Source of the DNA: Erysipelotrichaceae bacterium
GTDB lineage: Bacteria; Bacillota_I; Bacilli_A; Erysipelotrichales; Erysipelotrichaceae
DNA: 64,000 bases
NCBI GenBank assembly: GCA_017515475.1
Contig: JAFWFS010000013.1
Location: 62,001 to 126,000 of the forward strand
Reading direction: 5' to 3'
Under the pieces are notes generated by a model. That model worked only from the letters and a program-made list of their open reading frames with translations. It was not told the DNA's origin and did not search any database. Positions 17,142 through 20,628 of the stretch are shown here, piece by piece (the stretch's first letter is position 1; each line of letters starts with the position of its first letter). A program made the translations under genes and the position numbers.

Positions 17142-17609
17142 TTATAGATTGATCCTGTAACGGAAGATGTATTTCGTTTTTTCTCCCTGCAGGTACAGAT
17201 AATGGTTTTTCGGGACCTCTACCAGTTCGATCAGTTCTCCGTTCAGTTTCTTCAGTGTCTTGTAGGAAGCTTTGTTCTCCGGAGAACAGGTGATGATCAG
17301 CTCGTTCATGTCGAATTCCTTCTTGGCGATCAGAAACAGAAGCCGGCAGGCATAATAGGCATAATGATTTCCCCTGTAGGACGGAAGAATGTTATAGCCG
17401 ATATTGCCGTAGTAGTACATGTCTCCTTCGATAGACAGACGCAGATCCGTTGTTCCTACTTTCTCCTTGTCGGAATGTCTTAAAATGTCGTAGTAAACCG
17501 CAGGTACGCCGTCATAAGCCGTCCTCTCGCTTACCCGATATCTTTCCTTCAGATCGACCACAGGTCCTTCATAGACCTTTCTGTTCCGAAATAGACCAAA
17601 CAGATTCAT
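17142..17609 (-). CDS. GNAT-family acetyltransferase-like protein
   Basis: About 155 aa. The centre matches the GNAT core: beta4 YYYGNIGYNILPSYRGNHYAYYACRLL with the GN-helix entry resembling the acetyl-CoA pyrophosphate loop, then ELIITCSPENKASYKTLKKLNG, the beta5-alpha4 hallmark of N-acetyltransferases (NxxSxxxxxK). Substrate unknown. Start: the ATG at 17609 is seven bases after TATAAT; the adjacent ATG at 17612 is only four bases away. No SD, so a leaderless transcript is likely. Confidence 0.75.
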   Translation of the reverse strand: MNLFGLFRNRKVYEGPVVDLKERYRVSERTAYDGVPAVYYDILRHSDKEKVGTTDLRLSIEGDMYYYGNIGYNILPSYRGNHYAYYACRLLFLIAKKEFDMNELIITCSPENKASYKTLKKLNGELIELVEVPKNHYLYLQGEKTKYIFRYRINL

Positions 17610-17629
17610 CATTCAAATTATAGCACCAG

Positions 17630-17655
17630 AAAAGCCTTCTGTTAGGAAGGCTTCT
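17630..17655 (-). terminator. Terminator of the four-gene envelope operon
   Basis: Minus-strand stem AAGCCTTC/GAAGGCTT (17646-17653 with 17632-17639), six-base loop, followed by TTTCT. It lies between the operon end and the GNAT -10 box. Confidence 0.7.
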
Positions 17656-17659
17656 TTCA

Positions 17660-19225
17660 TTATTCGGCGCGGAGGAATTCAACGATTTCCTTGTCCGCTT
17701 TCGCCTTAACGTCAATCGTATCGCCGATCTCAATGAAGGATGCGTACAGATCGCCGTTGGAGAGATCGTACCAGTAGATCTCGTTTTTGTCATTCATATA
17801 CAGGATCACGGTATTTCCGTCTTTTACATAAGACTGCAGGCCCACGACTTCAAAACTGACGGTTTCTGTTTCTGTATCTTTTCGGGTTTCGCCGATCAGT
17901 TTCAGATAATTGTCGTAGGCTTCCTGAACCGTAGCGCCGGTTGCGGCTGTCTGATAGTTTTCATAGCTGACAAACGCGTAATTCTTGATCAGATTCGCGC
18001 CGTCGACCAGACCCATGAAATAGGTAGGTCTTCCTTTGACGGAAACCATGCTAGGGAAGATGGCCGTATAGTGATATTGCTGTACAGCGCCCTCCGCACT
18101 GCTGCGTGCCGAATACTCTTCCGCACCCGCTCTTCTGATATAGGATATTTCGCCGTTGCGCAGATCGATATAGGCAAATCCGACATTGGATTCATCCTTG
18201 CCTACACTGGTAACGCCCGTATAGATCCAGACGTTGTTGTTGAACTGGACATAGGCATAATCATCCGTAAACTCTACAACACCCTTCTTGGACCAGTTGA
18301 ACAGACCGTTCTCGTATCTCTTGCTTTGCGAGAACTGCCTGTAGACGACGGAAACAGGATAGACATTATCGACCCATGCAGGAACGGATTCGACATCATA
18401 GTATTGCGCATTTCCGTTGAATGGATCTACAACGTACACACCCCTGATATCTTCCGTCTTGTCCAGCCAGGTCATGCTGTATACAGGAACGATCCAGTAC
18501 GGTTGATAGCTGTCATCCAGTTCAAACTTAGCCGTTCCCAGCAGAGCCGTCGGATCTTTGAAGAACAGATGACGATAGAGATTATGCCCGAAATAGGCAG
18601 AAGTCATGTATTTCATGCCTTCTGTTCTTACCAGTCTGGCATCTCCGCTTTCACAGTCTACCATAATGTAACCAGGCGTGGTTCCCGTAGCCATGTATTT
18701 CAGGAAACTGCCGAAATCGATCGGAGTGACTCTATATAGCGTACCGTTCACGCTGATCTGTACCCAGTCGTTCCCTACCGCGTATTGCGATACTTCATCA
18801 GAGCCCAGGGTTCCGAATACTCTGTCTCCCAGCTGTTCAGCCGTATTCTTGTCGACAAGCTGAACCTGCGTCTGGTCGAATTCCGGAATCGTCTCAAAAT
18901 CGATTTCCTTAATGACAGACTGATTCTTGTAGTTCTTTAAGCCGCCCGTATACGGTCCGCCGATGATTGCTCCAATGAGCAGCACGACAGCCATGGCAAC
19001 GGCTGCATAGACAAGCGGTTCTATACGGACTTCCTTGTTCCTTCCTTTTCTCAGCCTAATAAACAGCAGGATCAGCAGGATCAGCAGGATGCCAAGCTCA
19101 AAGATAAAGCCGAAAGAGTGAAAATTGAATGGAACAAACAGCAGATACTGAAAGAAAAACAGTACTGCGGCAATCGATAGAATTATGATCAGGTTGATTA
19201 ATCTATTTAGAAATTTCATGCTCAT
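17660..19225 (-). CDS. Membrane-anchored protein with a large predicted external domain
   Basis: 521 aa. Three hydrophobic segments near residues 8-30, 33-56 and 70-92, with a basic loop RLRKGRNKE between the second and third, then a roughly 430-residue hydrophilic beta-rich domain ending at the C-terminus. That domain has repeated short Tyr/Asp-rich strands (FNWSKKGVVEFTDDYAYVQF, YWIVPVYSMTWLD) but no catalytic motif I recognise. Last gene of a four-gene operon. The preceding stop TAG abuts the first ATG, with AAAGGAG three bases before it; the third codon is also ATG and has better SD spacing, so the start may be 19219. Function unknown. Confidence 0.75.
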   Translation of the reverse strand: MSMKFLNRLINLIIILSIAAVLFFFQYLLFVPFNFHSFGFIFELGILLILLILLFIRLRKGRNKEVRIEPLVYAAVAMAVVLLIGAIIGGPYTGGLKNYKNQSVIKEIDFETIPEFDQTQVQLVDKNTAEQLGDRVFGTLGSDEVSQYAVGNDWVQISVNGTLYRVTPIDFGSFLKYMATGTTPGYIMVDCESGDARLVRTEGMKYMTSAYFGHNLYRHLFFKDPTALLGTAKFELDDSYQPYWIVPVYSMTWLDKTEDIRGVYVVDPFNGNAQYYDVESVPAWVDNVYPVSVVYRQFSQSKRYENGLFNWSKKGVVEFTDDYAYVQFNNNVWIYTGVTSVGKDESNVGFAYIDLRNGEISYIRRAGAEEYSARSSAEGAVQQYHYTAIFPSMVSVKGRPTYFMGLVDGANLIKNYAFVSYENYQTAATGATVQEAYDNYLKLIGETRKDTETETVSFEVVGLQSYVKDGNTVILYMNDKNEIYWYDLSNGDLYASFIEIGDTIDVKAKADKEIVEFLRAE

Positions 19226-19777
19226 CTACTCCTTTCTTAATATGCTTAGATTCAGGTTGATTTCCTTCAGACATGCTCCACTGATAAAAGCGTATACCAT
19301 GACTTTCAAGGCCGGAAGCAGTCTGTCTTTACAGCTGCTGTTCTCGTTTTCCAGAATCGTCTCTATCGTCCCGGTGATGTATTCATCGCTGAGATGCTTT
19401 GTCTCCAGATTCCTGATAGACTTGCAGAAATAATCGTAAAGTCTTGACTCCGATACGATATCGTCAGATTCGTCATCCGCATCGCCGTTGATCAGCTTCA
19501 TCAGCTCACCGATCTCTTCGATGTTCATGCATTCACGTAAAGCCGAGATCAGCAGTATCCTGGAAAGATGTCTTTCATAGTATTTCTTGTTGTCCGGATG
19601 AGGAACAAAGCCTCTTTTGACCCAGTTCTGAATGGTGGAAGTCTGTAAACCGGTGATGGAACAGACCTGTCCAAGCGAAAGACCTCCGGTAATCTCGATC
19701 ATCGGTCTGAAGACCGAAAATGCATCATCGCTTTCCGTATAGGCAATATTGGTTCCGGGAATCATTTTGGTAAGCAT
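19226..19777 (-). CDS. DUF1836-like HTH protein
   Basis: 183 aa. Residues about 33-75 form a MerR-like helix-turn-helix (LSLGQVCSITGLQTSTIQNWVKRGFV) with a wing (PHPDNKKYYERHLSRILLISALR). This is the pattern of DUF1836 proteins, which are putative DNA-binding regulators. The C-terminal part is helical with Asp/Glu-rich loops. Third gene of the operon behind SD AAAGGAGAG; a candidate autoregulator of the consensus promoter and dyads upstream (inference). Confidence 0.75.
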   Translation of the reverse strand: MLTKMIPGTNIAYTESDDAFSVFRPMIEITGGLSLGQVCSITGLQTSTIQNWVKRGFVPHPDNKKYYERHLSRILLISALRECMNIEEIGELMKLINGDADDESDDIVSESRLYDYFCKSIRNLETKHLSDEYITGTIETILENENSSCKDRLLPALKVMVYAFISGACLKEINLNLSILRKE

Positions 19778-19790
19778 ATGTTACTCTCCT

Positions 19791-20303
19791 TTAATTATGG
19801 GATGCCGATGAATGGGAAGAAGAAGCTGCAGAACTTGCGGCAACATCCTTGTCGAACTGGTTGATCGCCAGCACAAGCAGGATGATCAGAACTTCATTCT
19901 CTTCGTCGTAGATATCGATGTAGAATCTCTGCGTAAAGCGGAAGATTTCCTGATCAACCTGAGCTATCATTTCATCGTTCTCATCGTAGATCTGATAATG
20001 CCAGCTGAAGAAATCGCCTTTGATCTTCCAGCCAAGTCTTTCAAGCTCCAGTTCGCTGCGGAAGAAGGTAAACTTCTGGTCCAGAGAATCAACAAGCTCG
20101 TCATTGAAATAAATATCGTAGTTCCTTAAAAACCAGGTAAAATTCTTTTTTACATATCCGAGCAGGAAGTCTTCCCTGTACAGATTGATCTGAGGAAAAA
20201 ACAGAGTCGAATTCTCGTAAGTGTATGCGACATCGCCATCTTCGTCATAAAGCTGACCGTCCGCATACAGGAAACGGAAATTCTCTTTCAGATAGTATTT
20301 CAT
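19791..20303 (-). CDS. LURP-one/YxjI-like protein
   Basis: 170 aa. Alternating beta strands with repeated acidic-aromatic patterns (FRFLYADGQLYDEDGDVAYTY, FFSWHYQIYDENDEMIAQV, RFYIDIYDEENEVLIILLVLAI) resemble the LURP-one/YxjI tubby-like beta-barrel family. A hydrophobic helix near 143-152 would be the central helix of that fold. The last ~20 residues are low-complexity Ala/Ser/His. Clear SD (AAGGAGGG). Second gene of the operon; biochemical role in bacteria unknown. Confidence 0.7.
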   Translation of the reverse strand: MKYYLKENFRFLYADGQLYDEDGDVAYTYENSTLFFPQINLYREDFLLGYVKKNFTWFLRNYDIYFNDELVDSLDQKFTFFRSELELERLGWKIKGDFFSWHYQIYDENDEMIAQVDQEIFRFTQRFYIDIYDEENEVLIILLVLAINQFDKDVAASSAASSSHSSASHN

Positions 20304-20317
20304 CTTCTTTCCCTCCT

Positions 20318-20497
20318 TTAAAAATAGAATCTTCTATATATCCTGTATCTTCTTCCTGTAAAAGCTCTGAAAAGCAGATACATCAGGCCAAGCGGGCTCA
20401 GATAGAAGCACATTTTAATCATGAAACCGATGAAACCGAAAATCATCTCCAAGAACAAAATACCGATAAAGATAACAAATAACATCATCATATCCAT
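20318..20497 (-). CDS. Small membrane protein (59 aa or 57 aa)
   Basis: Short gene starting the four-gene operon. The product is one long hydrophobic stretch (residues 4-45, possibly two helices around a KMCFYLSPLG turn) with a strongly basic C-terminal tail (TGRRYRIYRRFYF). SD GAGGAGG is two bases from the first ATG but eight from the third-codon ATG at 20491, which is therefore the likelier start. Its stop TAA overlaps the SD of the LURP-one gene, indicating coupled translation. The positive tail predicts a cytoplasmic C-terminus. Function unknown. Confidence 0.72.
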   Translation of the reverse strand: MDMMMLFVIFIGILFLEMIFGFIGFMIKMCFYLSPLGLMYLLFRAFTGRRYRIYRRFYF

Positions 20498-20513
20498 ATC
20501 CTCCTCTCATTTC

Positions 20514-20543
20514 GGGATCATGCAATCACATATTTATGATCCC
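20514..20543 (-). promoter_or_regulatory. Leader stem-loop or operator dyad 1
   Basis: Perfect 8-base inverted repeat GGGATCAT/ATGATCCC with a 14-base loop, ending 17 bases before the first ATG of the operon. It could be an RNA hairpin near the SD or a DNA operator. Confidence 0.5.
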
Positions 20544-20546
20544 AAT

Positions 20547-20577
20547 GAACTGCATAATAGTTCGTATTATTCAATTC
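20547..20577 (-). promoter_or_regulatory. Leader stem-loop or operator dyad 2
   Basis: 13-base arms with two mismatches around GTTCG (core ATAATA/TATTAT), located between the transcript start and dyad 1. Its length suits either a hairpin or a regulator site. Confidence 0.45.
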
Positions 20578-20599
20578 ATACCTTTCTTATGGTAATTTG

Positions 20600-20628
20600 A
20601 TTATATCAGAGGTTCATATGACTGTCAA
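20600..20628 (-). promoter_or_regulatory. Consensus promoter of the small-membrane/LURP-one/DUF1836 operon
   Basis: TTGACA (20623-20628), 17 bases, TATAAT (20600-20605): a perfect sigma-70/sigma-A consensus, the strongest in the window. The leader to the first ATG is about 95 bases and contains both dyads. Confidence 0.88.

Follow-up and report, generated by a model that had tools for sequence, protein, structure and literature searches.

Computational comparison of related genomes revealed that the 17-bp spacer of a perfect promoter in a rumen bacterium of the Erysipelotrichaceae is a conserved DNA element. It is linked to the gene for a MerR-like/DUF1836 protein (g3), which is encoded in the operon behind the promoter, and it is also found before unlinked genes in relatives. 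The g3 protein is probably an autorepressor that uses this spacer as its operator and controls an envelope regulon of the phage-shock or sigmaW kind, free of PspA.

The stretch of DNA analysed (the window, 64,000 nucleotides) lies within a host genome of 1.30 Mb that is 90.5% complete. Comparisons were made with a family set of 272 genomes and a genus set of 36 genomes. Almost all named relatives are MAGs of the Erysipelotrichaceae, for the most part recovered from ruminant guts.

The operon and its promoter spacer

As an earlier note on this DNA had described, four tightly packed genes on the minus strand lie behind a perfect sigma-A promoter (Table 1). This promoter is the only one with a full consensus match in the 6 kb scanned, in which promoter-like sites overall number 7 against a shuffled expectation of 10.2. 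The protein encoded by g1 has two hydrophobic windows, of which one is clear and the other borderline; its last 15 residues include five K/R and no D/E. The g2 protein is barely above the cut-off for the Pfam family LOR (PF04525; 25.2 bits, cut-off 24.5). The g3 protein matches both DUF1836 (PF08876; 56.7 bits, gathering cut-off 27) and MerR_1 (PF13411; 31.5 bits, gathering cut-off 21.6); it is below cut-off for PF00376 and the NCBIfam MerR models, and its predicted structure has a pLDDT of 58.1. The LURP-one/YxjI-like and DUF1836-like identities given before are thus confirmed, the former only just. The g4 protein has three hydrophobic windows at its N-terminus and a large C-terminal part that is beta-rich in a low-confidence AlphaFold model (pLDDT 63.8). 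No Pfam family was above cut-off for g4, and no NCBIfam family for any of the four proteins. Foldseek matches of g4 in the PDB had a TM of at most 0.20 among those listed and were treated as meaningless. A search of the window against Rfam identified two tRNAs and no other family.

Table 1. Positions of the operon and its control elements in the window.
Feature	Position	Strand	Remark
terminator-like hairpin after g4	17632..17653	.	overlaps promoter-like site of next gene
g4	17660..19225	-	521-aa membrane protein, large soluble part
g3	19226..19777	-	MerR-like/DUF1836 protein, 183 aa, candidate autorepressor
g2	19791..20303	-	LOR/YxjI-like protein, 170 aa
g1	20318..20497	-	59-aa membrane protein, basic tail
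leader hairpin B	20512..20545	-	closest relatives only
leader hairpin A	20546..20578	-	closest relatives only
conserved block, 42 bp (promoter, operator, bases just past -10)	20587..20628	-	conserved among relatives
sigma-A type promoter TTGACA-17-TATAAT	20600..20628	-	12/12 consensus match
candidate operator GTCATATGAACCTCTGA, exactly the 17-bp promoter spacer	20606..20622	-	near-invariant at 46 sites

The conserved element, which the earlier note had overlooked, is the spacer. Upstream of g1, distant relatives have little in common beyond TTGACAGTCATATGAACCTCTGATATAATC and the bases directly after it. In the profile of 46 sites, from which three sites of genus g58 (L119-L121) were left out, the spacer positions are near-invariant and the flanks are not. 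Conservation extends beyond the 17-mer to approximately 13 bases past the -10, further than a single operator would fully account for. A strict 17-mer pattern matched 38 sites in the 36 genus genomes and none when the pattern was reversed; the pattern was built from known sites, so this count is descriptive. Altogether, 33 of these sites fill a promoter spacer and three are reversed; two, in a terminator-like hairpin (L177) and in a coding stretch (L178), are apparently fortuitous and were treated as chance. The 17-mer is an imperfect dyad: on average 0.595 of 8 pairs match around centre 15.5, compared with 0.273 across all 109 centres (29 distinct sites, those of g58 left out), and centres 11.5 and 6.0 outscore this centre. 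A class-wide search found the pattern in 2 of 395 genomes, both from the same genus, and the system therefore looks narrow.

Association of the site with g3 and with other genes

With up to two mismatches allowed, the site is present at 49 places in 36 of the 272 family genomes (one site for the reversed pattern). The carriers are 32 of the 36 genus genomes and four from the genera g26 (one) and g58 (three). Orthologs of g3, called by profile A2 with E at most 1e-15, were identified in 31 of the 272 genomes, each of which has the site, or a near match to it, upstream. In the four genus genomes that lack the element, g3 is absent too. In G191 and G196, sites with up to two mismatches precede other genes and a weaker copy precedes g3 (L155, L156); the profile scores of these copies, 46.5 and 45.7, compare with at most -2.1 in shuffles. 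The association of site and g3 has a Fisher p of 6e-36 over the 272 genomes and of 2.5e-4 within the genus, both of which ignore shared descent; the three g58 sites are included in the first test and in the 36 carriers. Pairwise identity of g3 goes down to 33% (median 57%), whereas the spacer hardly varies.

Five genomes have the site and no detected g3. Two of them, G197 and G216, carry it before flotillin genes and are 70-72% complete; the others are the three g58 genomes, where the site (two mismatches) precedes a gene of another kind and was treated as unrelated.

The earlier proposal of a four-gene neighbourhood was borne out, since all four genes occur together in 9 of 28 loci with g3 downstream of the promoter element, counting the window copy. 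One locus, L094, is on the same contig as L033, and its g1 was detected by tblastn. At the other regulator loci g3 is accompanied by varying membrane partners. According to an ORF tally of the 28 g3 operons, g1 is present in 20, g4 in 16, SPFH in 12, LOR and MntP in 11 each, PspC in five and cardiolipin-synthase-like PLD proteins in two. The g2 scan returned 13 loci. At L038 and L040 a flotillin gene, a LOR gene and a relative of g4 (30%) lie side by side, with neither g3 nor the element. This suggests that the element goes with g3 and not with the effector genes, and that these loci are an effector set under another control.

The site also precedes genes that are not linked to g3. It was found before 8 of 10 unlinked flotillin genes (Band_7 genes of approximately 470 aa, classed by open-frame length); the remaining two have a weaker form (L154) and a form with an 18-bp spacer (L153). 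Further copies precede SPFH genes of approximately 296-308 aa (L084, L093, L108, L085), DUF4342 genes (L091, L098, L103) and the gene at L079, whose YtxH match is below cut-off. Most of the unlinked SPFH genes of approximately 296 aa that were examined are without the site. In four genomes (L157-L160) the 17-mer before an unlinked SPFH gene is reversed and located just downstream of the -10; the copy at L160 deviates from the strict pattern by one mismatch. Since the 17-mer lies outside the -35/-10 here, the operator is separable from the promoter. A profile scan of 20 loci gave three clear sites (L154-L156), the 18-bp form, the four reversed sites and nothing at the remaining 12.

The leaders of these four SPFH genes (L157-L160, also L173-L176) are strongly conserved after the reversed operator, with AATCGTCGTTAACCCTGACGTGAGC, in 4 of the 272 family genomes. 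They had no match in Rfam at E up to 0.1, and the AATCGTCGTTAACCCTGACGTGAGC leader is possibly an undescribed RNA element.

Band_7 genes are present in 33 of the 36 genus genomes. PspC is encoded in five, always within the g3 operon, and PspA was above cut-off in none of the 36, where weak matches fall mostly in long open frames. A scan of the host genome, of which about one tenth may be missing, showed one site only and neither Band_7 nor PspC genes, and PspA did not reach its cut-off. The regulon of the window species may thus be this single operon, a reduced case.

Proposed repression and known envelope systems

We propose that g3 represses its own operon: probably as a dimer, it would bind the 17-bp operator occupying the spacer of the strong sigma-A promoter from which g3 is itself transcribed, and would so block RNA polymerase. 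A disturbance of the cell membrane would release g3, and derepression would then supply membrane-tending proteins. In the window species these would be g1, LOR and g4; relatives would add SPFH, flotillin, PspC, DUF4342, cardiolipin-synthase-like proteins and MntP, made in part from unlinked promoters bearing the same operator. Such a response would resemble phage shock or the sigmaW response, but PspA would be missing and the regulator would be another one. That LOR, g1 or g4 might act as sensors is a guess.

Repression is favoured because a perfect promoter with an optimal spacer should be on unless it is blocked. For mer promoters, a passage in PMC11049809 gives 17 bp as the optimal spacer and reports that shortening to 17 bp leads to constitutive expression. 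Blocking also agrees with the location of the site, which fills the spacer or, at L157-L160, sits just past the -10. Autoregulation would fit the position of g3 inside the operon, where it comes first after the promoter in six loci.

The strongest contender, although an unlikely one, is that g3 binds the spacer and activates in the manner of MerR, or that another regulator reads the site and g3 is a mere neighbour. MerR proteins act within the -35/-10 spacer, as described in parts of PMC11049809, and g3 exceeds the MerR_1 cut-off; the five genomes with the site and no detected g3 could likewise point to a different regulator. However, the spacer has 17 bp and not 19 bp (19-20 bp for activation by untwisting), and perfect hexamers at this distance require no untwisting, which makes blocking the likelier mode. 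The reversed sites just past the -10 suit repression as well, and the presence of the site in every one of the 31 g3 genomes also counts against this contender.

Autorepression by g3 would place familiar genes under a different switch. In Bacillus subtilis the sigmaW regulon includes yxjI, yuaG/floT, pspA-ydjGHI and yvlABCD and is connected to envelope stress, according to sections of PMC3498285; YvlC is a PspC homolog, as stated in a passage of PMC9239133. The candidate regulon resembles this set, as far as those sections of PMC3498285 describe it, in its LOR protein, its flotillin and, where present, PspC. It differs in that an ECF sigma factor picks the promoters there, whereas the promoters here are of the sigma-A type and have an operator in common, and PspA is not found above cut-off. 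Parts of a survey of Psp systems (PMC11237479) tie PspA to band-7 proteins and flotillin, and for some operons also to phospholipase-D family proteins. PspC, in the five genus genomes that encode it, and these band-7/flotillin and phospholipase-D family partners are likenesses to the Psp systems as outlined in passages of PMC11237479 and PMC9239133; the lack of PspA above cut-off in 36 genomes is the difference. The main text of the survey does not contain the terms MerR, LURP or DUF4342. A protective role is suggested since the neighbours of g3 are those of envelope-stress systems, and by this analogy the regulon may do similar work.

For the DUF1836 family, a passage in PMC3146951 suggests from gene neighbourhood that the DUF1836 protein regulates hemolysin III, whose gene is located beside its own. 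There, as here, the DUF1836 gene adjoins a gene for a membrane protein; that passage gives no DNA site or regulon, both of which are proposed here. In an excerpt of PMC12688256, DUF1836 appears as an entry in a gene list. The literature searched, largely outside the subscription journals, yielded neither a DNA site nor a regulon for DUF1836 and no paper on DUF4342 or on flotillin of rumen Erysipelotrichaceae. A DNA site and a regulon are proposed here from sequence for a member of a family that is seldom named in this literature. As a candidate operator the 17-mer is short and exact, and the suggested envelope-protection regulon combines phage-shock-like and sigmaW-like members.

A wider generalization, which we regard as quite doubtful, is that the DUF1836 class consists of membrane-state repressors, one of which would here control an entire envelope-stress regulon free of PspA, while LOR, g1 or g4 would hold the regulator at the membrane or release it. 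If true, this would be a third way to run such a response in Firmicutes, beside ECF sigma factors and two-component systems.

Leader hairpins, the conserved block and flanking genes

The earlier note had seen the control site in two dyads of the leader (20514-20577). Both dyads exist: the window leader (approximately 20578-20512) has an MFE of -21.5 kcal/mol, which 1 of 200 shuffles matched (z -2.68), and folding is better than in shuffles for 4 of 4 sequences, the window and its three closest relatives found, L031-L033 (z -2.07 to -3.02). These folds and a few paired changes could indicate that the hairpins are the main switch, as a protein site or an RNA device. This is improbable, since they are seen only in those three relatives, the other leaders being very short, with no room for hairpins (L036, L037, L039), or different in sequence. 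In addition, support for paired changes is slim, with a covariation term of +0.75 for the four sequences, and no Rfam family was matched. The dyads are therefore probably wrong as the control site, for which the spacer is the conserved candidate; the broader idea of tight control of a membrane process by a DUF1836-type gene holds in outline, given the recurrent cluster. The hairpins might help to stabilize the mRNA or to translate g1.

In L041 and L042 the region from the promoter element to g1 contains, by eye, a different leader from that of the window; it shows apparent inverted repeats and possibly a short reading frame that starts with ATGGATAC/ATGGATCC.

Very little speaks for the conserved block being the signature of an alternative sigma factor: several unlinked promoters retain the whole block, which is reminiscent of sigmaW regulons, but its -35 and -10 are those of the sigma-A consensus and not of an ECF-sigma promoter, most of the extra conservation falls in the spacer, and the 17-mer also occurs reversed outside the hexamers. 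An unregulated strong housekeeping promoter, conserved for its strength alone, would explain the perfect consensus and is just as improbable, because strength fixes neither 17 spacer bases at unlinked promoters nor reversed copies.

The operon is followed by a GNAT acetyltransferase gene (17142-17645) with its own promoter-like site. Relatives of this gene are located behind g3 in 18 of the 28 regulator operons, which suggests that the GNAT gene may belong to the same system. On the other side, a low-molecular-weight phosphatase-like gene (PF01451; 20646-21062) ends just upstream of the promoter, and such a gene is the nearest upstream neighbour in many relatives.
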